From NCBI GenBank assembly GCA_950295325.1, contig OX485808.1, positions 9,674,501 through 9,738,500 of the forward strand: DNA of 64,000 nucleotides. Reading direction: 5' to 3'. This DNA is from Polytrichum commune (lineage: Eukaryota; Streptophyta; Polytrichopsida; Polytrichales; Polytrichaceae). This document shows, one piece after another, positions 3,620 to 47,430 of this stretch. The stretch's first letter is position 1; every line of letters starts with the position of its first letter. The position numbers and the translations under genes were made by a program. The notes below the pieces were generated by a model. That model ran no database searches and was not told where the DNA came from. It was given only the letters and a program-made list of their open reading frames with translations.

Positions 3620-3625
3620 ACTAAT

Positions 3626-8256: not shown

Positions 8257-8257
8257 C

Positions 8258-8270
8258 TTGGTATCAGAGC
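8258..8270 (+). promoter_or_regulatory. Primer-binding site (initiator tRNA-Met)
   Basis: TTGGTATCAGAGC lies two bases after the 5' LTR. The core TGGTATCAGAGC is the usual plant LTR-retrotransposon primer-binding site, complementary to the 3' end of initiator methionine tRNA. It marks the start of minus-strand synthesis. Confidence 0.92.
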
Positions 8271-14332: not shown

Positions 14333-14337
14333 CTGGT

Positions 14338-17887: not shown

Positions 17888-17931
17888 CTGGAAAAATGAG
17901 GCATACAATCTTTAGAACAACCGACACGCCG

Positions 17932-21060: not shown

Positions 21061-21110
21061 GAACACTATATTCGTTAAATTGAGACTTTCTCTAGTCTCA
21101 AATTAATATA
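21061..21110 (-). repeat. Terminal inverted repeat, left end of element B
   Basis: GAACACTATATTCGTTAAAT then the GAGACTTTCTCTAGTCTC hairpin. The six bases before it (21055-21060, ACCTTT) are copy 2 sequence and are the predicted target duplication of this end. Confidence 0.85.
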
Positions 21111-21593
21111 TGGATCAAAGAACTTGAAGAGGCCCGAAACTATATTGTCAACAATCTCAATTATATTATATGTTCTAATATCCCAAATCTATGATGTGCG
21201 GACATAAGCACATATGGTAGAGCACTCGACACCAACTTCATCAACAAAAACACATTGGGTAGAGCACTTCAAACAAGTTTCACCCAAAAATATATATAAA
21301 ATGATTTCTATTATTAGCATGTTCAATAGAATATAGACATTGCAACATACAAAGTGCATGTAATAAATGCATGTTTCTTCATTCGAGAATATAGTCCCAA
21401 GCATAATAATAAGATGAACTTCAATTGCAGCTTGAAATATAGTAAATGGATATTCATCCAACTCCAAACAATATAGTATTCGTAAGTTCTACCCAAACTC
21501 TGCCCCAATTTTGAAGAGCACACATATGTGTAATTTATATTGCTATAATTACGTATTAAACTATAATCATGCTAACACAATCCTACCAACTTC

Positions 21594-24500
21594 TCATTCA
21601 ACGTGGGTTGCTTCTTCTGCAATCCGAGCAAGGTTGTCTTTTGCAAAAGTTATGTACTTTTGAGGGATGGACACTGATCCACTATGGTGTTTCCGTGGTT
21701 TCCATGCTATGAATATGGAATCTGTATCTACCCAAGATGGACCGTGCTCAGAATCCACCTTCCACCGAAAGTTAGGGTTTGTATCCCAGCCTGTATAATG
21801 CCGAATCACATCTTCATTCCTTGCTGTCGGTCGATAGTACTCCACTTGTATTTGTCAAAAATGAGGGCTGGAAGTTACAAAATTTGGATTGGACAAAGCT
21901 CTTGCCACCCACACTGGCTTCGCATATGTCTCGTCTCCAGGACGCAAAATGAGCATATAACCTTCATGACAATCCACTGCAATGCGGAAAGATGGTGGGG
22001 GACGACTACTAGCAGGCCCCACGTAATGGTCGTCCACATCAAACTCCTCTCGAACCTCTCCATTTCCCAAAAGACTAGGCTCTGAAGCTTGTACATCGAC
22101 TCGTGTTTGTGGCCAAAATCCATGCCTCAAAGTATGAGGGCTATCTTGGTGGAGGTCTGCCAAGGCGGCACGAACACGTGTCCAATAATGTATCCAACTC
22201 CCATAACGATGCCAACATGATCCGCCAACATCCGCTATTTTCAAACTCTCCCAATATTGTATGAAGCCTGATATACCTTTCAAAATATCCTCCAAATTCT
22301 TCATGGCTATTGGCTTACAAGGCCTAGGCTCCCCATCCGGTAACATGGTCTTTCCATCCGCATCCACGCGCCACACAAGAAGACCCTCCGGCGGGCTCCA
22401 GTCTTGTGACGTGCACAACAACTTGTATTGCATGGCCGGGACACCATCGTCACGCATATAGAAGCGGAATTGTTGTGCCTTCGTATGCCCGATCAATCGG
22501 TGAGCTCCACTTCGAATATAAGGTTCTATAAATGCCTTGAAGTCTGGCACCTCCTCAATCATATGGGGGATGACGGGAACGTTCTCCAAATCCATGTACG
22601 ACTTCATCAATAATGGAATTGTAGGAAAATCCTCCTCCCGCAACTTCATGCTCCACCGCCCAAAAGATGCATCAATATCATCGTGCGTGTGGCCTACCAA
22701 TAGGAAGGACACAAAAACCTCCTTGAAAATGCCTTTCGCAACCAACAACGACCAATATGCAAATACATATCTGCTTTTATTGTCCTTGGCACAATTGTCC
22801 AATTGGACACGCAAAGTTGGAGGCAACTTCTTGGCAATCACGGGTTCATTGGGTGGCTCGGGCAACGAATGCAAGCATACATCTTTTCCATCCAACACCG
22901 CTTCATATAAAGGTGTTGAACCCGTGTTCTCAAATAACAATCCTGAAGAATAGGCTGGTGGTTTCTCTAAATCACGTAAAAGCCTTGCAAATGATCCTAT
23001 CGTGTGGTTTGAATCCGCTGGATACAAATCAAGAGCATAATGGGCAAATTTGACATCACCGTGTCCATGTGCAATCATTCCTGCAATGCCAACCCAACGT
23101 GATTAGCATCTATGTATGAATAAACCATTATGAAGGAATCCATGTTCTCCAGTACATCACGGAATAAAATACAACAACATTTAGGGTATGTCATGACATT
23201 GTTTCGAAGTTCACCTGTAACCGATACAGGCAACTTGAAAAACCCATCCGTGGCCTTGATTCGATTTGCAAAACATGGGGAGGCTGTTTTGGCATGGTCC
23301 ATTTTGTCATGGATGACCGTAAGAACCTCCAAGGGCCTGGAGATGGACAAAGCTCTATTTGTGTAGTAATCATTACGGTGTGCCTCTTGCATGTTTACGT
23401 GCTTGAAATAGTTCAATTGATGCGCTGCATATGACTCGGTGCCCATCGTGTGTGCATCCCGGAGGCGCTTCAACTTCTCGCAATTAGAGCACCTGGCAAA
23501 TTTGTCCCCTCGTCTTTTTGTAATGTATTCGCTAAAGTTTTGTTTCTTGATTGCACTCAATTTTGACAATGAAATTGGCTCCAACCCAATCTTCTCGCCA
23601 ACTGCATTAACGTCCAACAATATGTCTTTCCATTTTGTGCCTGTGGGAAGAACTTTCTCCACAACCTTTTCACCGGTTGTGAGTGTGCGTGTTTTGTGCG
23701 GCATTGCATCGGCAAGAGGGACAATGATGGTTGCTAGAGTGGCCGTTGCTTGCCTTGTTGCTTCCCTAGGCTTCTTTAAACCCACGTTACCATGGTGACG
23801 GGACCGGCGGCCTTCCTTGGCATAAGCAGCTTGTCTATAAAAGTCCGATTTCGACACACCGTGAATGGTGTACCATGCCTTACAACACACGTCTATGCTT
23901 TCAATGGTGATGACCTTGCGACCCGTCCCATTCACATGTATCGCCCTATGGACATCAAGTTTTCTTGTGGATCTTAGACGGAAATCTCCAAGCCACATTT
24001 CTTCGCGGATGACCTTCAATTTATCCCTTGGAAACAATTGGCAACAACGATGCACACAACAATCCTTTGTGGCAACTTCTCTAATGGACTCCTCCCCGAG
24101 CAACCTTTGACGTTTACAATCAGTTGCAGACGGAGCAGGACGTGCCAATGTATCGTACTTTCTTTGACCCTTGCGCGGCCGCATGTTTGATTGCACCTCC
24201 TTTTCGATTTGCATGTGTCGTTGCTCATGTTCACGCAAGCTAACTCCATCAATTGTGACATTCCTCAATGGCCACCTGCGGAGGGAGAACCTATGAGTGG
24301 GATCCACCTCGGAATGAACGACCGACTCCAATATGACAACCCCAACGTCCTCAGTGCCAAGCGGGTTTTCATCAATGCAATCTTGCGGATGGGTGTTACG
24401 GCAAATCCCCTCCGCCACAACAACTCCACTATCGTTAAGAAGTATCACCTCCAAATTCACCCACGAAGCCCTTGAAAGTCCCGTACATTCAACAATGGGA

Positions 24501-24658
24501 CACTGCGGTACGGAAGACGAAGGTAAATCCAAATGATCTTCATCCGCACTGTCAGCCATAGTAGCCTCCCCGACAATGTCTAGGTCATCATCAGATGCAG
24601 ATGGCCAAGTGGCCATGTCATCAGATGACCAATCCCCTATTTCACTAAACCCATCCAT
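21594..24658 (-). pseudogene. DUF7869 transposase-like gene, copy 3 (same nonsense mutation as copy 1)
   Basis: The minus-strand gene starts at an ATG at 24658 right after an acceptor-like TAGGCAG. Exon 1 ends near 23160 and the core exon runs from about 23080 to 21594. The protein matches copy 1 throughout. The TGA corresponding to copy 1 position 2823 is present here at 21855-21857, where copy 2 has CGA. The product would lack the last 84 or so residues, after the DUF7869 core. It is divergent from the ParB/MTase/FCP1-like gene, with the palindrome array between them, an arrangement in which the array could serve both promoters. Confidence 0.78.
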
Positions 24659-24861
24659 TCTGCCTACACACATGAACATTGAACATTGTCTTAAAATCAC
24701 AAAAATTGTAGGTTCAAATCGAAGAACAAAAAAACCATCATATATAAACAAAATTGCAAATACTCAGTGCTCATACAAGTTCATATGACTGCTATGCCAT
24801 TGGGCTTGCAAAGGTTTCGGAAGGCCAGTGGCCACACCGGCACCCAGATCCCAACCACACT

Positions 24862-25831
24862 TAGAGGCTGGGTTTGGGTCGAGCGACCCAAACCTTTTGG
24901 GAGGATGGGTTCAGGCTCAATACAGAGAGCACCCACACTTAGGCGCTGGATTTGGGTCGAGCGACCCAAACCTTCTGGCAGGATGGGTTTAGGCTCACTA
25001 CAGACAGCATCCACACTTAGGGGCTGGGTTTGGGTCGAGCGACCCAAACCTTTTGGCAGAATGGGTTTTGGGTCACGACAGGGAGCACCCACACTTAGAG
25101 GGCTGGGTTTGGGTCGAGCGACCCAAACCTTTTTGCAGGATGGGTTCAGGCTCACAACAGTGAGCACCCACAGTGTAGGGCTAGGTTTGGGTCGATCGAC
25201 CCAAACCATGAGGCAGGATGGGTTCAGGCTCACAACAATGAGCACCCACACTGTAGGGCTGGGTTTGGGTCGATCGACCCAAACCATGAGGCAGGATGGG
25301 TTCAGGCTCACAACAGAGAGCACCCACACTGTAAGGCTGGGTTTGGGTCGACCGACCCAAACCATGAGGCAGGATGGGTTCAGGCTCACAACAGTGAGCA
25401 CCCACACTGTAGGGCTGGGTTTGGGTCGATCGACCCAAACCATGAGGCAGGATGGGTTCAGGCTCACAACAGTGAGCACCCACACTGTAGGGCTGGGTTT
25501 GGGTCGATCGACCCAAACCATGAGGCAGGATGGGTTCAGGCTCACAACAGAGAGCACCCACACTGTAAGGCTGGGTTTGGGTCGACCGACCCAAACCATG
25601 AGGCAGGATGGGTTCATGCTCACAACAGTGAGCACCCACACTGTAGGGCTGGGTTTGGGTCGATCGACCCAAACCATGAGGCAGGATGGGTTCAGGCTCA
25701 CAACAGTGAGCACCCACACTGTAGGGCTGGGTTTGGGTCGATCGACCCAAACCTTGAGGCAGGATGGGTTCTGGCTCAATACAGAGAGCACCCACACTGT
25801 AAGGCTGGGTTTGGGTCGACCGACCCAAACA
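24862..25831. repeat. Family-1 palindrome array, 13 copies on a 78-bp unit
   Basis: Each unit holds a 22-bp palindrome: arm GTTTGGGTCG, two variable bases, then the reverse complement of the arm. Copies start near 24872, 24954, 25030, 25108, 25187, 25264, 25341, 25419, 25497, 25574, 25652, 25730 and 25809. Between them are CATGAGGCAGGATGGGTTC and AGCACCCACACTGTA-like segments. Arms are nearly invariant (one G to A change at the second copy) while the central dinucleotide varies (AG, AT, AC). Because 78 is a multiple of three, long open frames exist on both strands; they are by-products of the repeat. The array sits just upstream of the DUF7869 gene. Confidence 0.95.
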
Positions 25832-26451
25832 ATTCCGCAAAATCCGCCTATTTATTCGGGTGATGCTCTATTAATCTATTTATAACCTATTTGGGACAAC
25901 TGAACTCATAGATGCTTGTTGTAATTAGCTGCTCATGAATGGAAGCGTATACAAACCGTGTATTACAGCTCCAACTTAGAGAGCTTGCAGCAATCTCAGG
26001 ATTGGGACATGAAAGAAAGAACCAGCATTTGGGGGGGTTGGGCTCTTTATACTACCCGCCTCCGCTTTGGGCATCCTCTTTGGATGCCTTTCCCACCTGG
26101 TCTCCTTTGGAGGTTAATTCAAACCTTCTGACTCAATTTCCCGCTTCTTGTCAATAATAGAGAATGTATATTTAGCTTGGCTCTTCGTTGCCCCAACCAC
26201 CAAATGAATAATTCAACATATATTTAAAGTTGTTACCACCCTAACTTGGTCAACACTATTCTTCAACTCTTTCATAATTAGTTTTATACATGAATACACC
26301 ACCACCTTCCCTATTGCCATCTCCTTTCTCCTTTTATCATTGTTGTATATTTTTCTCACATCCTTACTAATACTAAATCCCTATATGTAACTTCCATATA
26401 TCACCATAGTGGATATTTAGTGTTTGAGTTTACATTTAATGTTACTTACTC

Positions 26452-26584
26452 TCATAGGGTTAGTAATGGGAAGTGTATGCGTTCGTTTTAAGTGTATCAA
26501 ACACTAACTATCATATAACTAAAAAGGATATAAAGGTTTTGATACACTACATATGAACGCATACACTAAATACCAATAACCCTA
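26452..26584. mobile_element. Small foldback (MITE-like) element
   Basis: Starts CATAGGGTTA and ends TAACCCTATG. The arms contain AGTGTATGCGTTCGTTTTAA and, on the other side, the imperfect reverse complement (ATGAACGCATACACT), also GTGTATCAAA and TTTGATACAC. The whole 133-bp unit can fold into one hairpin. No clear target duplication was identified. Confidence 0.6.
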
Positions 26585-27401
26585 TGACAATATGTAAGAT
26601 TATATCTATTAAGGGGTTTTACTCTACTTGTAGTCAAACATTATGGTATATTTCAAACAATATATTGACAAAAGATGTGCATGTATTATAAAACTTCATA
26701 TACTAAAAGTCACTAAATATAATAGTTAATGCTATTATTTAGACTCTCACATGAGGACTTATATTTTGAAAACAAATAATTAATGCCATGACAAACTTGA
26801 ATAATTTGGCCAACTTTCAATTTCTGCTAATTAAAAGAACATATGTTGTGTTGTAATGTGTGCACCCAATATTGCTTCATCCTCAAGACTCCAAGTGTGA
26901 CAATAACCTAGTACCTATGTGGAAGTCATTAATGGAACCCTAAACCACAAATGACATTTGGCACGTTCAATCTTCCAAGGATGTTTGAACCTATCGTGAA
27001 GTCCCTTGAACTCTACCAATGTGTGTGAGCAAAACATGCAAAGTTCAAAAGGTATGTCCTCATATCATTCACAACATGAAATCTACTTTAAATTAATATA
27101 TAATATTTCACTATTCCAAATAACATGTTAACATGAACAACATCCTATCCATTATAATCTAGTTCTTATGCTTTTCTTACCAGGTGACAAGGTTATAGGT
27201 TAATATTGTATCACCTACTTGTGAGCACAATATCGTTTATTTCCTTTAGTGCGTTCATTCGTGAAAAACCACACATCCATCTTTCACGTTTGTGAATTAG
27301 GATGTTGTGATGACAATATACATTTGTATTGGAAACTACAAGCACCAAGGCCCATGTCATTTGACCTATGTGCCATCCAGTTATGGTTTGTGTTGTTTAA
27401 G

Positions 27402-27433
27402 GTTTAGGGTTTAGGGTTTAGGGTTTAGGGTTC
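27402..27433 (+). repeat. Interstitial telomere-like repeat (TTTAGGG)n
   Basis: Four to five head-to-tail TTTAGGG units, the plant telomere repeat. The run is short and internal, so it is not a chromosome end; such runs often sit in plant promoters (telo-box) or mark repaired breaks. Confidence 0.85.
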
Positions 27434-27959
27434 AGGCATCATCAAACATCAAACTGAATGTTTAAATGACTTCATATGATATGTGAACTCCATGGGGTTG
27501 CAGTAGATACATTTGTAATCATTTGTTTCTCCCATGTACTTCAAATGTGAACTTCTAAGTACATATATTAATGTTCACTCTAATGCTACTTGTTAGGGTA
27601 TCCATTATAGACTAGAGCATTGTCCTCTACCAACAACCATCATATAAATTACAATACATAATCCTAAACTGTTAACCATGTGAATGGTTACCATATTTAT
27701 ATTATTGCACCGTGTAATTGCCTTTGTGGATTGCAATATAATTATGACTTACTCCTCTTAGACTTTGTAACACTCTCATATGATTCCATAAATTACATTA
27801 TTCATACACCAAAACGATAATGGCTACATTCAACGATGTTATCAATTCCAACGGGTGATCATTCAATTGAACACCATTAAAATATGAGTTGGTGATGGTG
27901 TTAATTTTGTGGAATACCTTAGTCCACGTAGGTTTTTGAGTGGTATTGAATTGCCGCTA

Positions 27960-28560
27960 ATGAATAGCGGGTTAGAAGGCCGGGGCCGGGCGGCCAAGAG
28001 AGGCGCCGGCCCTCCTATGTCCCGCACCTAGGGGCAAGGACAACCAGGAAGGCAATCTCCCTAGGGTGGCAGGTGTCAACACCACAAGCCTCGCGGGCAA
28101 CCACCTAAACCAAGGAGGTGTCGACACCTGGCAAGGTGTTGGCCCGCGAGGCTTCTGAGCCGTTGATGGGCCCGGCGCAATCTAATGGCCCGGATTCGAG
28201 GGTTTAGGGTGACCCCTTCCGCTCTCTCCTTCTCTCCCCTCCTCTTTTTTCTTTCTCTCTTTTTCTTCCTCTCTTCCTCCGCGCCAAGCGCCGCTCTTGG
28301 AAACGCCGCCGCCGCTTTCCATAGCGCCGCGCCAAGCGCTTCCTCTCGCACCTTTTGCTTTTGTCTTGGTCGCGCCGCTTCCCTTCATTCTTCTTTCTCC
28401 TTCATTCCTCTCCTCCTCTCTGATGCTTCTCCTCCTCTTCTCTCATTCTATTCCTCGTGTTATTGTCTTCCTCTTCTTATTCTCTCTTCTTGGTCCAGAG
28501 TGTTAGCTTTGAGTGAGTTCGGAGCGGTTTATTGTGTTGAACTCCTTACTTGTTTTGTAA
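27960..28560 (+). promoter_or_regulatory. GC-rich block with hairpin, then CT-rich leader
   Basis: GC-rich DNA starts abruptly at about 27970. A long inverted repeat pairs AAGCCTCGCGGGCAA (near 28086) with TTGGCCCGCGAGGCTT (near 28138), with AGGTGTCGACACCT in between. From about 28210 the plus strand turns into a C/T-rich stretch typical of plant 5' untranslated leaders. A 134-codon frame here is low in complexity and probably not a protein. I infer the promoter and first, non-coding exon of the plus-strand gene beginning at 30059; no TATA box was identified with confidence. Confidence 0.45.
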
Positions 28561-28939
28561 AATTCATGCATGGAGTGATTTTAGGTTGAGTAGAAGTGAG
28601 CACGGTCGAGTGTGATAGAAATGTAGAGGTCTTTCAAATTAGGCCTGAGTTTGCAAGAATCAGGGGGTTTGTGAGAAAGTTTTAGGGTGCTTGAGAGATT
28701 CATTGTGTTTCTGAGATCTTTGTGAGAGTTGTTCTTTAGTGCCACAACAGAGTTTCTGAGTCTGGTTGTAAGAAGCAGATTGTGAGAGCAGCTTTCAAGA
28801 GTTTGAAAGACAAGGTAAGCAATTTGCATCAGTGCACACAATTTGCATCATTCCCTTTAGGTTCCTGTTACATATACAATGCATAAGCATTGTATATGTT
28901 GCCCAAGCATTAAACATGCATCTGGAAACACAGTAGTTT

Positions 28940-29905
28940 GGGGAGACGACCCAAACTCATATTAAAATATAATAAATATTTGAATTGCAGCCTAAAATGA
29001 ACTAAATGTTTGGGTCGTTCGACCCAAACATTGCAGCCTCTTGTTTGGGTCGAGCGACCCAAACATTGGAGCCTCATTATGTTTGGGTCGCTCGACCCAA
29101 ACATTACAGGGAGAAGAACTAAACCACATTGTAAAATATAAAAGAACTTCAAAAATTAAGTAAATGTTTGGGTCGTTCGACCCAAACATTGCAGACTGAA
29201 ATGACTGGGTTGAGGTACCTAAATTTGCAGCCTAACATGTTTGGGTCGCTCGACCCAAACATTACAGGGAGAAGAACTAAACCACATTGTAAAATATAAA
29301 AGAACTTTGAAAATTAAGTGAATGTTTGGGTCGTTCGACCCAAACATTGCAGTCTGAAATGAATGGGTTGAGCTACCTAAATTTGCAGCCTAACATATTT
29401 GGGTCGCTCGACCCAAACATTACAGGGAGAAGAACTAAACCACATTGTAAAATATAAAAGAACTTTGAAAATTAAGTGAATGTTTGGGTCGTTCGACCCA
29501 AACATTGCAGTCTGAAATGAATGGGTTGAGCTACCTAAATTTGCAGCCTAACATATTTGGGTCGCTCGACCCAAACATTACAGGGAGAAGAACTAAACCA
29601 CATTGTAAAATATAAAAGAACTTTGAAAATTAAGTGAATGTTTGGGTCGTTCGACCCAAACATTGCAGTCTGAAATGAATGGGTTGAGCTACCTAAATTT
29701 GCAGCCTAACATATTTGGGTCGCTCGACCCAAACATTACAGGGAGAAGAACTAAACCACATTGTAAAATATAAAAGAACTTCGAAAATTAAGTAATTGTT
29801 TGGGTCGTTCGACCCAAACATTGCAGTCTGAAATGAATGTGTTGAGATACCTAAATTTGCAGCCTCATCATGTTTGGGTCGCTCGACCCAAACATTACAG
29901 GGTGA
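28940..29905. repeat. Family-1 palindrome array, second block (158-bp units, two palindromes each)
   Basis: About 13 copies of the family-1 palindrome, intact from 29008 onward (29008, 29044, 29081, 29166, 29239, 29323 and so on to 29872). Centres are TT, AG and CT. From 29160 they form about five tandem units of roughly 158 bp, each with a TT-centred and a CT-centred palindrome in fixed order. A worn copy precedes (28940) and two worn copies follow (29970 and 30011). The block is upstream of the acceptor at 30058, so it probably lies in a 5' intron of the large gene. Confidence 0.93.
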
Positions 29906-30058
29906 CCACCTAAACCACACTTTAAAATCTAAAAGATCTTTTAAAACGACTTTGAAAATTAAGTAAATGTTTGGGTCAATCCTCCAAATGTTAAATGCAC
30001 ATTGCAATACTTTGGGTCGATCGACCGAAACTCACAGTTTCGATTTCTTGGATTGCAG

Positions 30059-33000
30059 ATGGCCCCTAAAAAGAGACCAGGTGAAAGGTGGTTCATGCTC
30101 GCGCCAGACCACCTTTGGCAGGAGTATGAAACTCCACAGGACGATTCTTACGTCCCAAAAAATGGCGTCGTTTTGGCATGGTCCGTTCAGGTGGTGAAGG
30201 CATCCATGTTCAAGCTGCTATTCGTGGTGAAGGTGGGGACCCACGAGCAGCACACCTGGGCAACGCTGACGGGATGGGAGGTTGCGTCCGTCCAGTCTCT
30301 CGGGGACTACGTAGACGTGATACTGGAGAACTCCGCCGTGCAGAACGTCCACATGTTCATGCACCAGTTCTCCGAGCCCTTCGACCCCCTGTACGCCAAG
30401 GAGACTTGCGTCGACCCTGAAACCATAAAACCGGAGGCCATATTCATAGATGGTAGTGTAACGAACACGAAGGTTGCGAGCAGGTTCACGAAGTTAAAAC
30501 AGGCTATCACGGTTCTCAACAAGGCGCTGCAAAGCAAACCCAAGACGCAGCAGCCTGTGAGGCGGAAGGCAACGACGGAAGAAGGCGCAGGGTCCTCAAG
30601 ACCACAAACTGTGAGGAAACCGCGGGCGGTCCCTGCAGACTCGAGACGGACGAGCACTACAACAACGCCGGCTGACAGCGAGACGCCAACGCCATCAGGA
30701 AGCCGTCAGACGACCCCTTCCAAGAGGGGAAGAGAGTCATCGGGGATGACTGACGAGCCTGTTTCCCCGGAGCTCCGGATGCCGAAGCCTGGCCAAGAGG
30801 TGGATGCAGGCGAAATACAAAAAATAAACAACAACTTCGAGACAAAATGCCTGCACTGCTTCTTCATGGGCAGGGACTTCAAATTCGAGGTCAACATTGC
30901 GCAGTGCCACCTTGCGCCACCAGAGAAGTGCGTCCGAGCCAAGGAGGACGCCTACGTCGACTGGATGGTCGCTCAAATCTTGGGCGGGCAGTTCAAGGAC
31001 GACAGGCAGACAATTGTTGTCATGCCACAAGGGCTGAAAAGAATGCCGACGCCTGAGATGTGGCCGGCAATCTCTAAAGGAGACTTCTGGCTGATTGACG
31101 GGCAGCACAGTGTGGAGGCCTCGAAAAAAATCCAGCTGATGACCGAGTGGGACGACCCGAACAACCAGAAGGAGAAGCTAAAAGTTTGGAAGGCTTTGGT
31201 GGTTTGGTCGGACAACGAGACGGTCCTCAGCGACATCTCCAGGTTCTTCAACATGGAGAACAAAAAGAGGGCCTATCAGGCATCGTGGATCAGAAACATC
31301 ATGGCCTCGAGGGAGGTGTGGGAGTTTTATGGAAGGCCTCCCAAGGAAAGGGAGAATGCTAAAGACAAGAACCCCAAATGGGAGGTGAGTATGTTTGGGT
31401 CGATCGACCCAAACTCCTACATTGTTTTGTTGTCATCGCCAGGTTGATAGTTTGGGTCGGTCGACCCAAACTCTGAAATTATTTTGATATTGTCCCCAGG
31501 TTCATAGTTTGGGTCGGTCGACCCAAACTCTGAAATTGTTAAGATGTTTTCGCCAGGTTCATAGTTTGGGTCGTTCGACCCAAACTGCTGTTGCATTTGT
31601 TTTTCCATTATGTGTTGTCTAACATGTGCTAATGTCTTCCTGTGCAGGACTTCAAATATCAAATGATCAATAAATTCTCCTCGATCGACAATGCTAGCCA
31701 CAAGCAGAAAAAGTATAACGAGCTGAGAGGAGAAATCTATTTGATCACAGCGTCCGATTCCGTATGGGCAAGATGGAAGAGTGTTTTTGAAAAACACGAG
31801 ACGGGGGACCTCATGGACCCCGACACCGGCATGCTCTTCAACCAGACTACGCGCTTCAAGCAAATGAAGCCTCTGGTGAGGGAGTTCTTCAGAGCGCTTC
31901 AAGGTCTCTCCGAGACAGAGATGGGAAAAGCGGCGTCCCACATCCTACACGTGGAGACGACGGCGAAGAGATGCTGGGTCCACCCTAAGATCGTCTTCAC
32001 CAAACCCAAGATCTTCGTCCCTTCATGCTACACAATGAAGGAATGGACGGAGAACAGGAAGAAGAAGACGACCATCGTCCAGGAGCTGCACAAGCTTGTG
32101 CCAGAGAAGAAGCTCATCGTGGACGGAGAGGTCGACGAGGCGCACTGGAGGGCCTTCAAAGCCGAATATAAGTTTACCAGTGCGTCCATGGCGGCACTCA
32201 TGAGGGAGGCGGGAGACGACTTCCTCAGATCCAAGCTCGTGAAGGGGGGGAGGAACCGGGCGCTTCCCGAACACTCAGTGCGGGCCTTCTCCAACTTCAT
32301 AAAGGAGAAGAAGATCGTCAGTTTCGAAGGCGATGCGCAATTCAACATGGTCACTGTCGAACCTCTCAGGATCCAGGGTTGGCCGGGTTCTGAGTCAAGG
32401 AAGGCGATCAGGACTAGAGCCGGGGACCGCTTCCCCTTCGGAATGATAGACTTCAGGAACATCCCTGGAGCCTCATTCGAGGGGACTATGAGCACCCCTT
32501 TTTACGATCCTTTCTTGTCGAAGTTCGTGGACTACGGCAGCCCCAAATTCAGGGAGGTCGACGTCTGGCTCTGGATTGTCGAGGACAGAAGGGCAGAGCA
32601 GGTTTACGAGATCGTGCGCAAATTGCAGCCGGAGTATGCCGTCTCGAAATCTCACTACGTTGCTGCACCGGCGGAGGGGGCGTACAGCACGCTGAAAGAC
32701 AAGAAGACGAAGATCGTCAACGTGCTGTGTTTGTACTTCGTGTACAAAGCTGAGCTGGTTAAGGTGCCAAACCATCCCATAGCCAGGATGGAAAAGCTCT
32801 TCCAAGTCCAAGAAGGGTTGGGTACCAGCAGGAGCTTATATGACGAGGCGAAGTACGCCAACTACCCCGCGGATGAGCTGCGCATGGAGTTCTACCTGCG
32901 GATGATGAGGACCCTCACGAAGAGAGGGGACTGCATCTTCAACGTTTTCGGGGGGTCCAAACCGATTTTTGCAGCCATTGTAAGCAGAAAACCCAGAAGT

Positions 33001-35985
33001 CCCTATACGTTCGGTTTGGGTCGAACGACCCAAACTAGGGGCATGCACAGTTTGGGTCGAGCGACCCAAACTAGGGCCATGCATAGTTTGGGTCGAGCGA
33101 CCCAAACTAACTATTCTTATTTTGTTTTGGAAGTCATTTTCCATTATATGTTCATTTGGTGTTACTAATAGTATTGATTTTGATTGTGCAGATGTCTGGG
33201 TTGAACATCTACTCCTATGTGGAGGATGCCGATGTTCAATTCTACAGGACCCAAAAGGCGCTGGCCAAGAGAATGGACATCCTCGACTGGATACCCGGAT
33301 CCTACGTCGAAGAGATCGTCGAGGGGGGCGAGAATCCTTTGGATATTGCGAGGCGAATCAACCCGGGTGAATTCGCCATGCGGGCCCCCGTTCAATTGCC
33401 AGAGCCGCTCATCGGGTTGCATCCGGGCAATCCGTCTATGGGAGCAGGTGGCGAGGTTGGGGAGGAGGGGGAGGAAGACGAGGAGGAGGCGGAGGAGGAA
33501 GCAGAGAAAGTGGAGGGGGAGGTGGAGGAAGGGGCAACAGGATTCACTCAAGAATCCGAGGCCCCTCAGCGGAAGAAGGCCATGCGGCCTGCCACGCCGC
33601 AGAGCAGGCTGGTGCCCGCGTTGACGGTGGACGACGCCAAGGATATGTACTCGAGGGACGCGACGGCCACCTTTAGGGAGCGTAGAAGGATGAAGGGGAA
33701 GAAGCTGTACGGGGACTATGCGGTGGAGGAGACGATCGCAATAAGCTCCGAGGACGAGGACGACATGGAACTCGCCAAGAAGCTGAGGTCTGATCCTGCC
33801 TCCCCCAGAGCGTTCGCCGGGAATGTGAGGGTGAAACCGGAGGTCCTCACCGTGGAGGAGGCGAACGCAAAAATGCTCCGAGACGAGGAGCAGCGTGTGC
33901 GACTGCAGAGGGCTGCCGCCGAGGAACCCTCTGTCCGCAACGAAGTCGCGGAGTTGAGGGCTCTCCTGTTGGAGCAGGAGCGGCAAAGGGCGATGTCCCA
34001 AACTCCGTCCCAAGCGGACCTCATCACGCAAGTGATCCAGGGCATGCTGGCGCAGGGATTGGTGATGGCTCCCCCGAGTTCATTCCCTCACTTGCCCGCA
34101 GGCTTCCCTCCACAGGATATCCGCCCGCGGCCGGCGTTGGAGCATTCCTTCAGCTTCGCGGATTTGCTGCAGCCGCACGCCCGTCCTTACGCGCCTGTGC
34201 AGCAGGTGGATGATCCAAACCTTTGGCGCGTCCCCGGAGCGTCCAGCTCGTTGGCACCCCCCCCGCTCCGGCCTCCCATCCTCTTGCCCCCACACCACCA
34301 GCGGGACGACCCCCACATGTTTGGGTCGTCCGACCCAAACAGTGCCGACGTTGCAGCGTCGCAGAGCGACCCTCGCCAAGCAGCAGGGTTTGGGTCGGCC
34401 GACCCAAACCCCGTCCCCCATCAGACCCCGGTCGACGAGCCTATGCTAGATGTTGAAGGCCCGCAAGGGCCTGGTGATACCTCTACTCCTAACCCAGTCG
34501 ATGAACCAATGCATGATGCGCATGCGGAGGTTGGGTTGGGACAAAGGCCTGACAGTCAGCCTTTGCAGGAGCAGGTTGCGGCTGACGGCGTCGTCGGAGG
34601 CGGCGGTGACAGAGGTGGGGCAGCGCACGCGATGCCGGCATCAACGTCGTCAAGGCACGACCAAGGCGAGGTAATGCACTGACCCCACTCAGTTTGGGTC
34701 GGCCGACCCAAACTTCCTGGGTCTTTGACTTGTTGCCTTGGTCGTGTCCCCTAGCTAGGACAAACTTAGGCCCCCCCCGGCACTCGCGCCCTTCGTCACC
34801 CCCAGCGACCATTCGTTCGTCCACCTACCCCCGGCTTTGCAACGAAGTCTTCATCACGGCGGCCCGTCTCTTCAATTTTTTCTAGATGTAGAAGTAGGCT
34901 AGTTTGAACGCATCGTTCAACGCGGCTCCCCCAATCAAGATGTACATAGAGCATTGTATATAATATAATCACCATTTTTGACTCCTATATACTTGTATAT
35001 TGTGTTTGAATGTATTTTGTATGCTCTTGTATCCCTTGTATCCCTTGTTGCACCCCCTCCAAAATGAATCAAATGCTTTTGTGTTTGCACCGAGAACGCT
35101 CGTTTCCTTAATGCTTCGTTTGGACATAGCATGACATAAGTCGCCCCCGTTTTCTCTCGCTCGTATCCGCAGGGCTCGGAGCATAGCGTAGCGGCTCCCC
35201 GACGCTCTTCTCCAAGGAGCGCAGAGGGCAGCACGGCGGCCCCCCCGGTTTTACCCGCCCCGCCCCCGCTGCCGAAGAAACGATTCCTGGTGTTAGACCT
35301 GAACGGTGTCCTCGTGCAGTGCGTTCATTGCCCTAGGGCCCCCACAGTGCCCTTTTGCAAGCCCGAGGACGCTAATTACGACGGGCCGCCCACGTTCATA
35401 AAGAGCAAACTAGTTCACCTCCGCCCGTGGCTTCGGACCTTCCTCCAGATCGCCCAACAACGATGGTGGGTGGTCGTGTGGAGCTCCATGACGGCCGAGA
35501 ACACCAATGCGGTCGTGGAGTTCATCTTCAAGGGCATCGAGCCCCCCTGCATGGTCCTAGCACAGGAAGCCTGTAGAATATTGTACACACAGGACGGCAA
35601 AGTCGTCAAAAAACCAAACAACCCCGCTTCCCCCCAATACCTCAAGGTCTTGAAGCCCATTTTTTGGGACCAGCGACCGTCCTTGATAGGCGTCCCCTAC
35701 GACGTCCGCCCCACCCGCGAGAACACGCTCATGGTGGACGACAGCGCCGCAAAGAACATGTTGAACCCGACGGCCAACTTCATAGTGTGCCCTACGTGGA
35801 CGGTCGAGAAGGTCCGGGACCGATTTTTGTTAGACCTTAGTAAATACCTCCAGGCGCTCTGGGGAAGTGGACTTCCCGTAAACAATTTTGTTAGGAATAA
35901 TCCCATAGGCGAGAGATACTTGGATCCACGAGACCATTTGTACAGAGAGTTGTTATCTCACGCGAAATTTAACAAGCTCATTTGA
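30059..35985 (+). CDS. ParB-like / amino-methyltransferase-like / FCP1-like multidomain protein
   Basis: Exons 30059-31384, 31648-32979, 33192-34670 and 35173-35985 give 442, 444, 493 and 270 codons; every intron is GT..AG and phase 0. Exon 1 starts with ATG after TTGCAG (true start, or continuation of an upstream exon). Its second half resembles a ParB N-domain: VRAKEDAYVDWMV, TIVVMP, FWLIDGQHSVEASK, and FFNMENKKRAYQAS. Exon 2 contains VDVWLWIVEDRR where beta-class amino-methyltransferases have DPPY, and ends GDCIFNVFGGSKPIFAAI. Joined to exon 3 (MSGLNIYSYVEDADVQ, then LAKRM) this matches the AdoMet motif I/II layout, across the splice. Exon 3 continues with an acidic tract and a disordered Pro-rich region. 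Exon 4 is FCP1/HAD-like: VLDLNGVLV, VVWSSMTAEN, TLMVDDSAAKNMLNP. The key catalytic residues of both enzyme domains look altered. Exons are GC-rich, unlike the surroundings. Function unknown. Confidence 0.7.
31393..31585. repeat. Four family-1 palindromes in intron 1 of the large gene
   Basis: Copies at 31393, 31449, 31507 and 31564 (centres AT, GT, GT, TT) on a unit of about 58 bp containing CCAGGTT(C/G)ATA. The first starts eight bases after the donor GTGAGT (31385). In the pre-mRNA each could form a 10-bp stem with a two-base loop region or pair with its neighbours. Confidence 0.93.
33014..33107. repeat. Three family-1 palindromes in intron 2 of the large gene
   Basis: Copies at 33014 (centre AA), 33050 and 33086 (centre AG) on a 36-bp unit. 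The intron (32980-33191) interrupts the AdoMet-binding motif region of the methyltransferase-like domain. Confidence 0.93.
34319..34409 (+). repeat. Two family-1 palindromes inside coding exon 3
   Basis: Intact palindromes at 34319-34340 (centre TC) and 34388-34409 (centre GC) lie in frame and encode FGSSDPN and FGSADPN in the disordered region. The length of 22 bases is not a multiple of three, so the surrounding bases restore the frame. Confidence 0.9.
34692..34713. repeat. Family-1 palindrome in intron 3 of the large gene
   Basis: Intact copy, centre GC, 21 bases after the donor GTAATG at 34671. With intron 1 and intron 2 this means every internal intron of the gene carries the motif. Confidence 0.93.
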
Positions 35986-36128
35986 GACAGTACGTGTGTT
36001 TGTATGTGTGTGTGTGTATATGCGCCTACCCATTTTGTGTAATTTACGCTTCATATGTATCTTGATTTTCACGCGCTCTATCTCCCCCCTTTTCCTTGGG
36101 TTTTGTTTTGTTCCAATTTTGGCTCCAG

Positions 36129-36904
36129 CGTTTGGAGCCCTCGATTGACGTCGTCAGCGAGTCAGACTTGGGGAGCTTCTTCTACGAGACCGTTTACGAC
36201 GCCGCGTCAACCATCGACTACTCCAAGGAGCCTCTTGACGCCGGCGTCGTCGATAGCCCCCCACCCAAGCAAATCTTCCGGCGATCTGCGTCCCCGTCAC
36301 CGCTCAAAGGCATAAATCGCAAATGCGTCCGGACATCCCCCTCTCGGCCCGGCGGCAGTAGTACACCTCAACGGCGGCTGCGGATGGACGCTCGGCCTAC
36401 GAAGAGTGGAACCCTTCCTATTCCTTTGCGGGATGCCTTGCCCCTCCTCGCCAACTCCGACGGGAACGCCCCCGGTGACAAGGTGAACCCCCCCCCCCCC
36501 CCCCCAAAAAAACATGGTTATCCGCGCATTACAATCATTTTGCACTTAAAAAATGAATGTGTGACACGTTTGGGTCTTCCTCCCTAAACTAACACATGTG
36601 TTCGTGCGTTGACGCGTTGCAGGTTGCTCCCACCCGTAAACCTATGCGGTCTAGTGCGTCCATCGAGTTGGAGCGTTTCTACTCCATGACCAGAAATGCA
36701 AGACAGTCCACTTCATCGTATTCGAATTCTTCGTCGTATAATTCGGGCGGCCGACGGAATACAAAATGTGTTATTGATGGCGTTCACCCCAAGAATGGCT
36801 ATAGTCGCGGGGCGGAGATTTTCAGGAATGTTGAAGCAATGCGAGCAAAAGAAACTGCAGCAAAAGAAAAAGAGGCAAAAGAAAAAAAAAGCAAAAGAAA
36901 ATGA
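36129..36904 (+). CDS. Two-exon low-complexity product downstream of the large gene
   Basis: Exons 36129-36482 (118 codons, after GGCTCCAG, ending GACAAG before GTGAAC) and 36623-36904 (94 codons with stop, after GCGTTGCAG) join in phase 0. The product is Ser/Pro/Arg-rich (RRSASPSP, SPSRPGGSSTP) with a Lys/Glu tail (AKEKEAKEKK). No start codon is obvious in the first exon, so it is either the 3' part of the preceding gene by an alternative splice that skips the stop at 35985, or a separate transcript with an unseen first exon. The intron has a C18 homopolymer and a decayed palindrome at about 36569. No domain is recognised. Confidence 0.4.
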
Positions 36905-36984
36905 AGCAAAAGAAAAAGAGGTAGTATCCGAGGCTAGATAGGCCATAGTAGGCGTAGGGTTTTGGGCCATAGGCAAGAACATTT

Positions 36985-37345
36985 TGGGTCGCACTATCCA
37001 ATGCATGTGTGGTGTTAGCATGATATGCATTTTACATGCCACACTTTGTATGTTTTTTTTTTGCAATAATACAAGTTAGACATGATTTCCCCTTCCATAT
37101 GGTCTAAGGTTTGGATTGCCCTACCTAAACCATCACAAATATGAGTTTGGAATATTTTGTATGCAATATTATATTGGTTAACATATTAACCCTTCAATAA
37201 GATCTATGGTTTGGATTGCCCTACCTAAACCATATTCATACAAGCTCTAATATTTTGTGTGCAATAATATGAATGTTTTAAGGTTTCCCCTTAAATGTGG
37301 TCTAAGATTTGGATTGCCCACCCTAAACCATCACAAATATGAGTT
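36985..37345. repeat. Decayed palindromes and 120-bp tandem repeat near the right end of element B
   Basis: Three units contain GGTTTGGATTGCCC followed by (T)ACCTAAACC or a close variant (about 37109, 37211, 37306), which looks like the family-1 palindrome with a changed centre. Each is followed by CATCACAAATATGAGTT or a similar segment. A further half-decayed copy is near 36986. This places palindromes at both ends of the element. Confidence 0.6.
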
Positions 37346-37456
37346 ATTTATGGGGTTCTTGGTCTAAACACCTGCTTCAAAGTGTTCGCATCTTACAACT
37401 TTCTCCAATATGTGTTCCATTTATCCTTGTTCTTATTTATGTGAATGTCTCAAAAT

Positions 37457-37490
37457 GCCCAAAAAGTCTCAATTTAACGAATATAGTGTT
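37457..37490 (+). repeat. Terminal inverted repeat, right end of element B
   Basis: AAAAAGTCTCAATTTAACGA then ATATAGTGTT. It shares the terminal 28 or so bases with the left ends at 18015 and 21061 and diverges inward. ATTAGT follows directly. Confidence 0.75.
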
Positions 37491-38186: not shown

Positions 38187-39615
38187 GTACCATAGGTTGG
38201 TTGAAGCTTAGAAACGTTGGATTTGGATTCGGTTTGCGAAAACCACCTTTGACCAAAAACGTTAGCTAGTCATAAGGCACGGGTAGATCACTCCATTGTC
38301 AAGTTGAACATCACGTGCGACCAAAAAAAATCTTCTTTTGGTAAGTTGCACCACCAAAATGGGTCAAAATTTTATCAAATTTTTTTCATGAGTACATATA
38401 CACAGTACCTATGACATACTTAAAAATGGTAACGAAATTTGATGATTTGTTTTTTTCATAAAACATACCGTTTCTAACTAGAATGACACAGAATTGAACT
38501 AAACAAATTACTAAAAAAAATAAAGATGACTAAAAATTTCAGAAAACTATTCAAAAGTTACTATCAATGGTTATGTATATGTAGAAAAAAAATCATAAAT
38601 TTTAAAATTATATATGGCATGTAATATAGGGGTAGCAAACTTTGTCCGCACGTGGTGTTCAATTTGACAAGGAGTGATCTACCCGTGTCATAAGGACCCG
38701 AAAACTACACTATAGGTTGTAGAAGATTAGAGATGCTAGCTCTAAGCTTATATTATGAAAACAACATCTAAATGTTGGCCATTCAGACCAAAAACGTGAG
38801 CTCGTAGGTAGTGTCCAAGACATATTTTTTAGCCTTAAACGGAAGTTTAAGGCGATCATACGTCAAAGGAGTTTTCTAGAGATGCACTAGGTTGGGAGGT
38901 GTTTTTGCAAGGCTTGGAAATGACTAGCAACAAAAGAGTTAATGTAGCAAGGAAGGACTGCAAACACCCATTAACAATGGGCTTTCATATATACGTACTA
39001 TGCAGCATTTGGTTGCTGCGCAGAAGTTTACGACAATCTGGGCCGAGGTTTACGAACGCCCGTTCGTAAATGTGGCGGAAATGTAAGCTTCTGCGCAGCA
39101 ACCAAGTGCTGCACAGTTACGAACGTGCATTCGTAAACCTCGGCCCACATTTACGAATGGGCGTTCGTAAACATCAGCCCACATTTTCGTAAACTTTTGC
39201 GCATCAACCAAATGCTGCATAGTACGTATATATGAAAGCCCATTGTTAATGGGTGTTTGCAGTCCTTCCTTGCTACATTAACTCTTTTGTTGCTAGTCAT
39301 TTCTAAGCCTTGCAAAAACACCTCCCAACCTAGTGCATCTCTAGAAAACTCCTTTGACGTATGATCGCCTTAAACTTCCGTTTAAGGCTAAAAAATATGT
39401 CTTGGACACTACCTACGAGCTCACGTTTTTGGTCTGAATGGCCAACTTTTAGATGTTGTTTCCATAATATAAGCTTAGAGTTGGCATCTGTAACCTTCTA
39501 CAACCTATAGTGGAGTTTTCGGGTCCTTATGACTAGCTAACGTTTTTGGTCAAAGGTGGTTTTCGTAAACCGAATCCAGATCCAACGTTTCTAAGCTTCA
39601 ACCAACCTATGGTAC
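38187..39615. repeat. Long imperfect inverted repeat (foldback), arms about 426 bp
   Basis: Left arm 38187-39030 and right arm 39190-39615 pair over their whole length (GTACCATAGGTTGGTTGAAG on the left, its reverse complement at 39596-39615). Paired positions add to 77802 outside the MITE and 78220 inside it; the difference of 418 equals the MITE plus its target duplication, so there are no other indels that I can see. The loop (39031-39189) carries the first family-3 palindromes. Confidence 0.88.
38278..38687. mobile_element. 410-bp MITE with 8-bp target duplication
   Basis: Terminal repeats CACGGGTAGATCACTCC (left) and GGAGTGATCTACCCGTG (right), with further inward symmetry (TTGAACATCACGTGCG against CGCACGTGGTGTTCAA). 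TCATAAGG is duplicated on both sides (38270-38277 and 38688-38695). The undisturbed single site survives in the opposite foldback arm near 39524. The 8-bp duplication fits the hAT superfamily. Confidence 0.88.
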
Positions 39616-41616: not shown

Positions 41617-41655
41617 TGAGACTTTCCAAAGTCTCCGATTAACGAATATAGTGTT
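41617..41655 (+). repeat. Terminal inverted repeat, right end of the family-3 element
   Basis: GAGACTTTCCAAAGTCTC then CGATTAACGAATATAGTGTT. It has the same outer 13 bases as element B, and a different but still self-complementary inner hairpin. Confidence 0.75.
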
Positions 41656-43490: not shown

Positions 43491-43639
43491 AACCCCATAA
43501 TCATTTTGGGAGCATCATCTAGGATTTCCATCTATAAAATGCAAATTACTCCAACGCCTCGAGTGTGCACACTACGGATGATAATTCTTCCAAGGCCTCG
43601 CATTTCCACATCACGGGTTTCTTCAAACATGTCAACCCC

Positions 43640-44042
43640 CTACTCCTTCCGGGATCTTCTTCAATAATCTCCATCCACAAAAACTTAATTCCTCCAACTC
43701 CATGGGCATGCGCAATCCGGATGGAAATTCTTCCAAGGCCTCGCATTCCCACATCCCAAGTTTCTTCAAACATGTCAAACCACCTAGTCCATCCGCGATC
43801 TTCTTCCATGATTTGCAACCACCAAAATTCAATTCCACCAATGCCACGAGCGTGCACACTCCGGATGGAAATTCTTCCTCGGCATCGCATTCCCACATTT
43901 ACAGTTTTCTCAAACATGTCAAACCCCCTAGTCCTTCCGGGATCTTTTTCAATGATTTGCATCCACGAAAATTCCATACCTCCAACGCCACGAGCGTGCA
44001 CACTCCGGATGGAAATTTTTCCAAGGCCTCGCATTCCCACAT
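43640..44042 (-). pseudogene. Decayed 3' continuation of the LRR repeat
   Basis: Past the stop at 44043-44045 on the minus strand, two to three further 144-bp units continue in the same register (MWECEALEKFPSGVCTL, LVELNFGGCKSWKK, LEELSFCGWRLLKKIPEG) with more substitutions. They suggest that the gene was once longer or that decayed units accumulate at the array edge. Confidence 0.7.
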
Positions 44043-47000
44043 TTACAGTTTTTCCAAACATGTCAAATCCCCTAGTCCTTCCGGGATCTTCTTCAATGAT
44101 TTGCATCCACGAAAATTCAATTCCTGCAATGCCACGAGCGTGCACACTCCGGATGGAAATTCTTCCAAGGCCTCGCATTCCCACATGTAGAGTTTCTTCA
44201 AACATGTCAAACCCCCTAGTCCTTCCGGGATCTTCTTCAATGATTTGCATCCATAAAATGCCAATTCCTCCAATGCCACGAGCATGCGCACTCCGGATGG
44301 AAATTTTTCCAAGGCCTCGCATTCCCACATGTAGAGTTTCTTCAAACATGTCAAACCCCCTAGTCCTTCCGGGATCTTCTTCAATGATTTGCACCCATTG
44401 AAATGCAATTCCTCCAACGCCACGAGCGTGCGCACTCCGGATGGAAATTTTTCCAAGGCCTCGCAGTTCCACATGTACAGTTTTTTCAAACATGTCAAAC
44501 CGCCTAGTCCTTCCGGGATCTTCTTCAATGATTTGCACCCTTTGAAATGCAATTCCTCCAATGCCACGAGTGTGCGCACTCCGGATGGAAATTCTTCCAA
44601 GGCCTCGCATTCCCACATGTAGAGTTTCTTTAAACATGTCAAACCCCCTAGTCCTTCCGGGATCTTCTTCAATGATTTGCATCCATAAAATGCCAATTCC
44701 TCCAATGCCACGAGTGTGCCCACTCCGGATGGAAATTCTTCCAAGGCCTCGCATTCCGACATAGAGAATTCCTTCAAACATGTCAAACCCCCTAGTCCTT
44801 CCGGGATCTTCTTCAATGATTTGCATCCACGAAAATTCAATTCCTCCAATGCCACGAGCGTGCGCACTCCGGATGGAAATTCTTCCAAGGCCTCGCATTC
44901 CCACATGTAGAGTTTCTTCAAACATGTCAAACCCCCTAGTCCTTCCGGGATCTTCTTCAATGATTTGCACCCATTGAAATTCAATTCCTCCAACGCCACG
45001 AGCGTGCGCACTCCGGATGGAAATTTTTCCAAGGCCTCGCAGTTCCACATGTACAGTTTTTTCAAACATGTCAAATCGCCTAGTCCTTCCGGGATCTTCT
45101 TCAATGATTTGCACCCTTTGAAATGCAATTCCTCCAATGCCACGAGTGTGCGCACTCCGGATGGAAATTCTTCCAAGGCCTCGCATTCCCACATGTAGAG
45201 TTTCTTCAAACATGTCAAACCCCCTAGTCCTTCCGGGATGTTTTTCAATGATTTGCATCCATAAAATGCCAATTCCTCCAATGCCACGAGTGTGCGCATT
45301 CCGGATGGAAATTCTTCCAAGGCCTCGCATTCCGACATGGAGAATTCCTTCAAACATGTCAAACCCCCTAGTCCTTCCGGGATCTTCTTCAATGATTTGC
45401 ATCCACGAAAATTCAATTCCTCCAATGCCACGAGCGTGCGCACTCCGGATGGAAATTCTTCCAAGGCCTTGCATTCCCACATGTAGAGTTTCTTCAAACA
45501 TGTCAAACCCCCTAGTCCTTCCGGGATCTTCTTCAATGATTTGCACCCATTGACATGCAATTCCTCCAACGCCACGAGCGTGCGCACTCCGGATGGAAAT
45601 TTTTCCAAGGCCTCGCAGTTCCACATGTACAGTTTTTTCAAACCTGTCAAATCGCCTAGTCCTTCCGGGATCTTCTTCAATGATTTGCACCCTTTGAAAT
45701 GCAATTCCTCCAATGCCACGAGCGTGCGCACTCCGGATGGAAATTCTTCCAAGGCCTCGCATTCCCACATGTAGAGTTTCTTCAAACATGTCAAACCCCC
45801 TAGTCCTTCCGGGATCTTCTTCAATGATTTGCATCCATAAAATGCCAATTCCTCCAATGCCACGAGTGTGCGCACTCCGGATGGAAATTCTTCCAAGGCC
45901 TCGCATTCCGACATGGAGAATTCCTTCAAACATGTCAAACCCCCTAGTCCTTCCGGGATCTTCTTCAATGATTTGCATCCACGAAAATTCAATTCCTCCA
46001 ATGCCACGAGCGTGCGCACTCCGGATGGAAATTCTTCCAAGGCCTCGCATTCCCACATGTAGAGTTTCTTCAAACATGTCAAACCCCCTAGTCCTTCCGG
46101 GATCTTCTTCAATGATTTGCACCCATTGAAATGCAATTCCTCCAATGCCACAAGCGTGCACACTCCAGATGGAAATTCTTCCAAGGCCTCGTAGTTCCAC
46201 ATCCAAAGTTTCTTCAAACATGTCAAACCGCCTAGTCCTTCCGGGATCTTCTTCAATGATTTGCACCCTTTGAAATGCAATTCCTCCAATGCCACGAGCG
46301 TGCGCACTCCGGATGGAAATTCTTCCAAGGCCTCGCATTCCCACATGTAGAGTTTCTTCAAACATGTCAAACCCCCTAGTCCTTCCGTGATCTTCTTCAA
46401 TGATTTGCATCCATACAATGCCAATTCCTCCAATGCCACGAGTGTGCGCATTCCGGATGGAAATTCTTCCAAGGCCTCGCATTCCGACATGGAGAATTCC
46501 TTCAAACATGTCAAACCGCCTAGTCCTTCCGGGATCTTCTTCAATGATTTGCATCCACGAAAATTCAATTCCTCCAATGCCACGAGCGTGCGCACTCCGG
46601 ATGGAAATTCTTCCAAGGCCTCGCATTCCCACATGTAGAGTTTCTTCAAACATGTCAAACCCCCTAGTCCTTCCGGGATCTTCTTCAATGATTTGCACCC
46701 ATTGAAATGCAATTCCTCCAATGCCACGAGTGTGCGCACTCCGGATGGAAATTCTTCCAAGGCCTCGCATTCCGACATGGAGAATTTTTTCAAACATGTC
46801 AAACCCCCTAGTCCTTCCGGGATCTTCTTCAATGATTTGCACCCATTGAAATTCAATTCCTCCAACGCCACGAGCGTGCGCACTCCGGATGGAAATTTTT
46901 CCAAGGCCTCGCAGTTCCACATGTACAGTTTTTTCAAACATGTCAAATCGCCTAGTCCTTCCGGGATCTTCTTCAATGATTTGCACCCTTTGAAATGCAA

Positions 47001-47430
47001 TTCCTCCAACGCCACGAGCGTGCGCACTCCGGATGGAAATTTTTCCAAGGCCTCGCAGTTCCACATGTACAGTTTTTTCAAACATGTCAAACCGCCTAGT
47101 CCTTCCGGGATCTTCTTCAATGATTTGCATCCATAAAATGCCAATTCCTCCAATGCCACGAGCGTGCGCACTCCGGATGGAAATTCTTCCAAGGCCTCGC
47201 ATTCCCACATGTAGAGTTTCTTCAAACATGTCAAACCCGCTAGTCCTTCCGGGGTCTTCTTCAATGATTTGCATCCATAAAATGCCAATTCCTCCAATGC
47301 CACGAGCGTGCACACTCCGGATGGAAATTCTTCCAAGGCCTCGCATTCCGACATGGAGAGTTCCTTCAAACATGTCAAACCCCCTAATCCTTCCGGGATC
47401 TTTTTCAAGGATTTGCATTGTAAAATGTTT
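43640..47430 (-). repeat. 144-bp coding satellite of LRR units with a 576-bp higher-order period
   Basis: About 26 tandem 144-bp units, each encoding two 24-residue LRRs. Unit types recognised by the residues after EEL (NFRG, AFYG, HFKG, HFNG) recur in that order, giving a four-unit, 576-bp higher-order repeat. FSMSEC-type units lie at about 44758, 45334, 45910, 46486, 46774 and 47350, that is 576, 576, 576, 288 and 576 apart. High DNA identity points to unequal crossing over or gene conversion. Confidence 0.9.

Follow-up and report, generated by a model that had tools for sequence, protein, structure and literature searches.

A CACTA-ended DNA transposon of about 16.4 kb (21064-37488) best explains the centre of the window, i.e., the whole 64,000-nucleotide stretch of Polytrichum commune DNA that was analysed. 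It carries a gene for a presumed transposase with a DUF7869 domain, a divergently transcribed accessory gene for a predicted ParB-methyltransferase protein with altered active sites, and a symmetric 20-bp palindrome, TTTGGGTCGNNCGACCCAAA, in 36 exact copies. Our overall reading is that the accessory protein may recognise this palindrome, mark copies of its own family and counter their silencing, a proposal which we believe and doubt in about equal measure. The parts that define the element are as follows.

21064-21089, plus strand: left terminal inverted repeat, CACTATATTCGTTAAATTGAGACTTT, a 26/26 inverted match to 37463-37488
21855-24763, minus strand: DUF7869 gene, presumed transposase, in two open reading frames (ORFs; 21855-23102 and 23075-24763)
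37110-37327, no strand: right subterminal repeats, with three degenerate palindrome copies at 4-5 mismatches
37463-37488, minus strand: right terminal inverted repeat with a TAGTG end, the inverted match to 21064

Ends identical to CACTATATTCGTTAAATTGAGACTTT were also found at 18017 (plus strand) and, inverted, at 3591-3616. Positions 1-3620 are an inverted duplicate of 21060-24679, approximately 17 kb apart, and this recurrence of 3,620 bp of the left part at 100% identity suggests very recent movement. Within that copy, 1578-2825 matched PF25273 (DUF7869; E 6.3e-43) and is 100% identical to the 21855-23102 region; ORF 18546-20054 also matched DUF7869 (E 4.5e-43), and ORF 23075-24763 had no Pfam match. 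The left end at 21064 interrupts an older, 94% identical copy starting at 18017, the remainder of which was not found to the right of the element, and no target duplication was found at the flanks of the terminal inverted repeats, which read GAA on the left and TTA on the right (TGA and TAT if one more base is counted to the element). Since the flanks mismatch and the rest of the older copy was not found on the right, some rearrangement is likely. The pair 21064/37488 has exact ends with no further end between them, and a single element starting at 18017 or ending at 41653 was therefore disfavoured. The well-known En/Spm element, with its TnpA/TnpD layout, likewise combines CACTA ends, subterminal repeats and two genes, but here the ORFs of the element matched DUF7869 and not Transposase_21 in Pfam, and a target duplication was not found.

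Several other features lie outside the element. At 41628-41653 lies a third CACTA end of the right-hand kind, which has 3 mismatches and is perhaps the remnant of another copy. Just outside the left end at 18017, a second ORF (17222-17911, minus strand) contains a ParB-like motif, FYVWEGNHRLSAWW, recognised by eye, and had no Pfam, PHROG or NCBIfam match. A hairpin-like element occupies 38687-39533 (a 389-nt inverted repeat, 96% complementary, with a 69-nt loop), and LTR-like repeats of about 1 kb with 91-99% identity lie at 4573-5546, 7263-8262, 13339-14337 and 15595-16573; an integrase zinc-binding match (11060-11551) falls in their region. On the minus strand at 43546-50871, Kinase, NB-ARC and WHD_ROQ1 domains stand beside a long tandem repeat, rich in leucine, with two open frames (1308 and 1273 aa); this looks like a resistance-type gene of the kinase-NB-ARC-LRR kind, typical of mosses.

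The accessory gene is laid out as follows, all on the plus strand.

30059-31384: exon 1, 442 aa, with a PH-like domain, a low-confidence linker and a ParB-fold domain
31385-31647: intron 1, with 4 palindromes at 57-bp spacing
31648-32979: exon 2, 444 aa, a helical region and then a methyltransferase fold
32980-33191: intron 2, with 3 palindromes at 36-bp spacing
33192-34670: exon 3, 493 aa, mostly acidic and proline-rich, with 2 palindromes in the coding sequence (34320 and 34389)
34671-35172: putative intron 3, with 1 palindrome at 34693
35173-35985: exon 4, 270 aa, an FCP1/NIF domain with DLNGV; the join to exon 3 is putative

The initial annotation had proposed four phase-0 exons, and this model stood: the borders are GT..AG, the joined frame gives 1649 aa, the frame used is the sole open one in each exon, and all of the quoted motifs were found in the translated exons. 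GC3 of the exons is 0.71-0.74, against an overall GC of 0.43-0.49 in introns 1-3. Three relatives with 70-73% identity came from a protein query of residues 1-1000, and profile searches with exons 1-2 and with exon 2 returned 49 matches each, giving the set P0001-P0099, in which the lowest identity is 35% in the exon-1 part and 26% in exon 2. These relatives are available as proteins only; most span one exon and many read on beyond the exon ends. P0001 and P0002 have exon 1 and exon 2 in the same order, separated by unalignable sequence, and P0003 spans exons 2 and 3. When 47 relatives were aligned at the end of exon 1, 37 reached the last column and all 37 continued with V (a GT codon). The last column of exon 2 was reached in 47/52, where one stops and V follows in 45 of the 46 others, and Q (CAG-type) directly precedes the start of exon 2 in 28/29 rows; all of these counts come from translations of DNA, not cDNA, and it is from them that we infer splicing. 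The relatives, together with the V and Q counts at the borders, indicate at the sequence level that exons 1-3 are a real, conserved gene and that the positions of introns 1 and 2 are conserved. Across the relatives, the exons of this gene are conserved and its introns divergent. Chance ORFs were ruled out as an origin of the four exons, as 99 relatives match exons 1 or 2.

For the join between exons 3 and 4, which is covered by no relative, the evidence consists of the phase, the splice sites and the fact that no Met precedes the HAD motif. The initial annotation had placed ParB-like, methyltransferase-like and FCP1-like domains in one protein, and profile searches recovered the last of these: exon 4 matched PF03031 (NIF; E 3.7e-15, 56.4 bits against a gathering score of 21.8), but no other Pfam domain was found in exons 1-4. 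Exon 4 also matched TIGR02251 (E 2.6e-08, far under its curated cut-off) and had one further, sub-threshold Pfam match. The catalytic motif of NIF/FCP1 proteins is usually DxDx(T/V), and the HAD motif here is DLNGV, with the second D changed to N. It may be that exon 4 belongs to a separate or alternative product and that the three-domain fusion is an artefact of joining, an explanation that we rate a little below even. The C-terminus of P0003 is EVMH-stop, exactly as in the window's own read-through of exon 3, so that a product ending there is possible from the reading frame, and codon usage in exon 4 correlates with that of exons 1-2 at r 0.49-0.55, compared with r 0.80 between exons 1 and 2. 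Against separation, exon 4 is in phase 0 behind an AG acceptor and has no start codon ahead of the HAD motif, its first Met being residue 106 and DLNGV lying at 42. Further 3' on the plus strand, two phase-0 open stretches with splice-like borders (36129-36482, with GC3 0.71, and 36623-36904) are possible further or alternative exons; neither had a Pfam match.

The domains and motif positions of exons 1 and 2, again on the plus strand, are these.

30092-30535: PH/PTB-like domain (residues 12-159), a weak match
30878-31270: ParB/Srx-fold domain (residues 274-404), a predicted fold
31100-31111: Box II position, GQHS for GxxR, from an alignment of 48 rows
32323-32979: beta-class amino-methyltransferase fold, a predicted fold
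32449-32460: motif IV position, DFRN for DPPY, from an alignment of 53 rows
32938-32961: motif I position, FNVFGGSK, from the alignment

Structure prediction bore out what had been read from short motifs, namely a ParB/Srx fold in exon 1 and a Rossmann methyltransferase fold, with motif IV ahead of motif I, in exon 2; the latter is probably completed by the start of exon 3. A second prediction left out exon 3 of the window, which was misplaced in 9/9 alignment trials that included it. Foldseek searches of the predicted folds gave no match as good as E 0.001. The signature motifs themselves are altered throughout the family. Box II is GQHS in 38/40 ungapped rows (of 48) and has R in none of the 40; motif IV is exactly DFRN in 38 of the 52 ungapped rows (of 53) and takes other forms in 14, with DPPY in 0/52 and PP in none. 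Motif I is mostly FNVFGGSK or FNVFGGTK, and, read with the accepted roles of methyltransferase motifs, its N stands where D is usual. The sequence IDGQHS..FNxxNK presumably resembles the DGQHR/DndB branch of the ParB superfamily, a lead without a supporting library match. Neither a helix-turn-helix nor a C-terminal dimerisation domain was matched by Pfam and NCBIfam in the exon-1 rows or by Pfam in the exon-2 rows, where a single member of the 53 matched HTH_70 (E 0.094).

According to a passage in a 2025 survey of ParB-CTPases, the control proteins lost nucleotide binding when their Box II arginine was replaced by alanine. Because the Box II arginine and DPPY have been lost, and loss of the arginine abolished binding elsewhere, it seems unlikely from the sequence that the protein works as an ordinary CTP clamp or as an ordinary methyltransferase; it may instead handle nucleotides in a changed way or have a purely structural role. 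Phage and prophage proteins in which ParB-CTPase folds are fused to N6_N4 methyltransferases, as far as the survey's passages describe them, have the same fold pair, but the GxxR arginine is missing here. The words transpos- and plant- are absent from the main text of that survey.

The initial annotation also saw in this gene a captured, prokaryote-like ParB-methyltransferase. That view is partly supported: both folds are predicted, the signature motifs are altered, and sequence searches gave no significant parent. There was no significant bacterial or phage parent for exons 1-3 in Pfam, PHROGs or NCBIfam, and nothing significant when all 48 exon-1 rows were searched with NCBIfam and Pfam, the exon-1 rows also with PADLOC, and the 53 exon-2 rows with Pfam. 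The few weak matches in these row-wise searches were single or scattered (best E 0.0013, Pfam GHBP, one member) and included no ParB or methyltransferase family. PDB sequences, prokaryote contigs and viral contigs gave no significant parent, and viral structures no significant match (best E 0.03). In phage tblastn searches the ParB part had no match, and the best 20 of 21 records for exon 2 had E 0.6-0.9, being tail proteins or amidases where annotated.

The palindrome lies mainly in promoters and introns of the element, and its two largest arrays are upstream of the two genes.

24873-25829, no strand: array A, 13 exact palindromes with a 78-bp period, upstream of the DUF7869 gene
29009-29892, no strand: array B, 13 exact palindromes, mostly with alternating 73/85-bp spacing, upstream of exon 1

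Allowing up to 2 mismatches, 37 copies of TTTGGGTCGNNCGACCCAAA were found in the window against 0.00 expected (100 shuffles); a one-mismatch palindrome lies beside array B, at 30011. Exact copies occur only within 24873-34712, all between the terminal inverted repeats, with a density of 11-15 per kb in the promoter arrays A and B and in introns 1-2, and a count of 0 in exons 1, 2 and 4. As the tandem units differ (78, 73/85, 57 and 36 bp), the four arrays probably arose separately around one 20-bp site. Twelve degenerate palindromes (2-5 mismatches) were also found, 11 of them inside nested elements: 3 are in the right subterminal repeats, 1 is near the left end of the 18017 copy, and three are repeats of one array-B unit. 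Some of the 12 may be chance, since, when up to 5 mismatches are allowed, Markov sequences of the window contain a mean of 3.4 sites (30 runs, the highest count being 8).

In the relatives, the palindrome was sought as a recognisable peptide in each reading frame. Across the 99 proteins, 46 palindrome-encoding peptides were found in 2,927 residues unaligned to the exons, and 1 in 40,599 aligned residues. An unaligned stretch of at least 15 residues is present in 61/99 relatives; 30 of these 61 have an exact-type peptide there and 31, the most distant included, do not. P0003 has the peptide of one exon-3 palindrome and lacks the other. A variable-site scan, with two free positions per arm (256 forms, 16 of them symmetric), fitted 65 windows of the relatives, of which 61 can be read as symmetric and 4 cannot, and one window in the aligned exon residues. 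The 61 comprise 46 of the main type and 15 of three variants, with half-sites TTTCGGTCG, TTTCGGGCG and TTTGGGCCG. For 10 of the 15 variant windows the frame hides the right arm; in the other two frames, one of which hides one left-arm position, variant windows read as symmetric in 5 cases and solely as asymmetric in 4. P0068 has two site types, and P0011, P0028, P0030 and P0076 have an asymmetric window as well.

Site type follows the trees of the protein. On the exon-2 tree, 21 strictly labelled rows need 3 changes, the minimum, and 0/500 shuffles were as low; a first, hand-labelled run gave the same result (23 rows, 3 changes, 0/500), and with the types pooled as main versus other 16/500 shuffles were as low. 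The exon-1 tree needs 4 changes over 24 rows, with 1/500 shuffles as low. Within a clade, then, the type of site is stable, and a shift from one type to another can involve both arms. Co-adaptation of the protein is not implied, because gene and intron are inherited together and the clade pattern alone is no proof of it.

The closest parallel to this layout is the VANC system of VANDAL elements in Arabidopsis. As described in passages of PMC5735166, VANC carries DUF1985 and DUF287, binds its motif and induces loss of methylation, and the VANC21 motifs, of subfamily-specific types, belong to tandem repeats located within introns of VANC and VANB and also upstream of VANA. Both systems, on that description, have a short motif of several types that is repeated in tandem within introns of the gene for the element's protein and ahead of the transposase gene; the candidate site here differs in being a long palindrome, and DUF1985 and DUF287 were not found in this protein. 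As the layout closely resembles that of VANDAL and a ParB fold suits palindromic sites, we infer a similar binding logic. The accessory protein, or a complex containing it, would recognise the palindrome as a symmetric dimer and thereby mark copies of its own family; it might then oppose silencing over the element, as VANC does. The degenerate methyltransferase fold would serve DNA or cofactor binding and not methylation, and the FCP1-like domain, where present, would touch the transcription machinery.

The same binding could instead make the protein a cofactor of transposition or transcription, like TnpA of En/Spm, a binder of subterminal repeats, with no anti-silencing role. Palindrome arrays upstream of both genes would suit such a cofactor, as would the degenerate copies that make up the right subterminal repeats and the one close to the left end of the sister element. 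Yet every exact site is internal, in the promoter arrays, the introns or exon 3, and the terminal copies are degenerate; we regard the cofactor reading as rather unlikely. A more specific and bolder form of self-recognition, in which a phage-type ParB-methyltransferase would act as a clamp that loads at parS-like palindromes, spreads and blocks silencing, with site and protein co-diversifying into recognition types distinct from one another, seems to us unlikely. The palindrome might also be bound by the DUF7869 transposase or a host factor and merely be carried by the ParB-methyltransferase gene; array A lies directly upstream of the DUF7869 gene, and each of these proteins would be a candidate binder. 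The sites nevertheless reappear beyond this gene's exon borders in 30/61 informative relatives, and ParB proteins bind palindromes, albeit via a domain other than those identified here, which leaves a different binder improbable. That the methyltransferase is active and marks its own DNA with 6mA or 4mC, as a passage in PMC12477816 proposes for the Ectocarpus Sola1-1 protein and related transposon proteins, fits the predicted DNA amino-methyltransferase fold but is very improbable, since motif IV is gone (DFRN-type, with DPPY intact in 0/52 rows) and motif I has N for D.

The initial annotation was also aware of no described plant transposon with such cargo. For land plants this stood: no moss or land-plant transposon with ParB was found among the matches listed, in open PMC titles and abstract openings. 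The cargo is, however, known in algae, and ParB-methyltransferase cargo on transposons is not new, as the relevant passage of PMC12477816 describes such proteins. According to that passage, which cites Iyer et al. 2011 and Petroll et al. 2025 as primary papers and also giant EnSpm elements with accessory genes in red algae, ParB and N4/N6-methyltransferase accessory proteins occur in Ectocarpus Sola1-1_Ec32 and in green and red algal transposons and are thought to bind their own transposon. The moss element shares with these, as they are described there, a transposon-borne gene on the strand opposite the transposase and the combination of ParB-like and amino-methyltransferase domains. It differs in its moss host, its CACTA ends with DUF7869, a lost catalytic signature, ParB and methyltransferase domains undetected by Pfam, its PH-like and FCP1 domains and a candidate cognate site. 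As far as the matches listed tell, the new points are that the host is a moss, that the element is CACTA-ended with DUF7869, that both signature motifs are lost and that a recognition site can be named as a concrete candidate.

The passage in PMC12477816 on transposon proteins suggested to bind and modify their own element names no target site. In the element described here the site itself seems to be on display in dozens of copies, and relatives supply natural variants, so that the idea can be put to a simple binding experiment. Should the protein indeed oppose silencing, the problem solved by VANC would have been solved a second time and in an unrelated way, with a protein built from a bacterial DNA-partition fold, which might also offer a sequence-addressed tool for plant epigenome editing.
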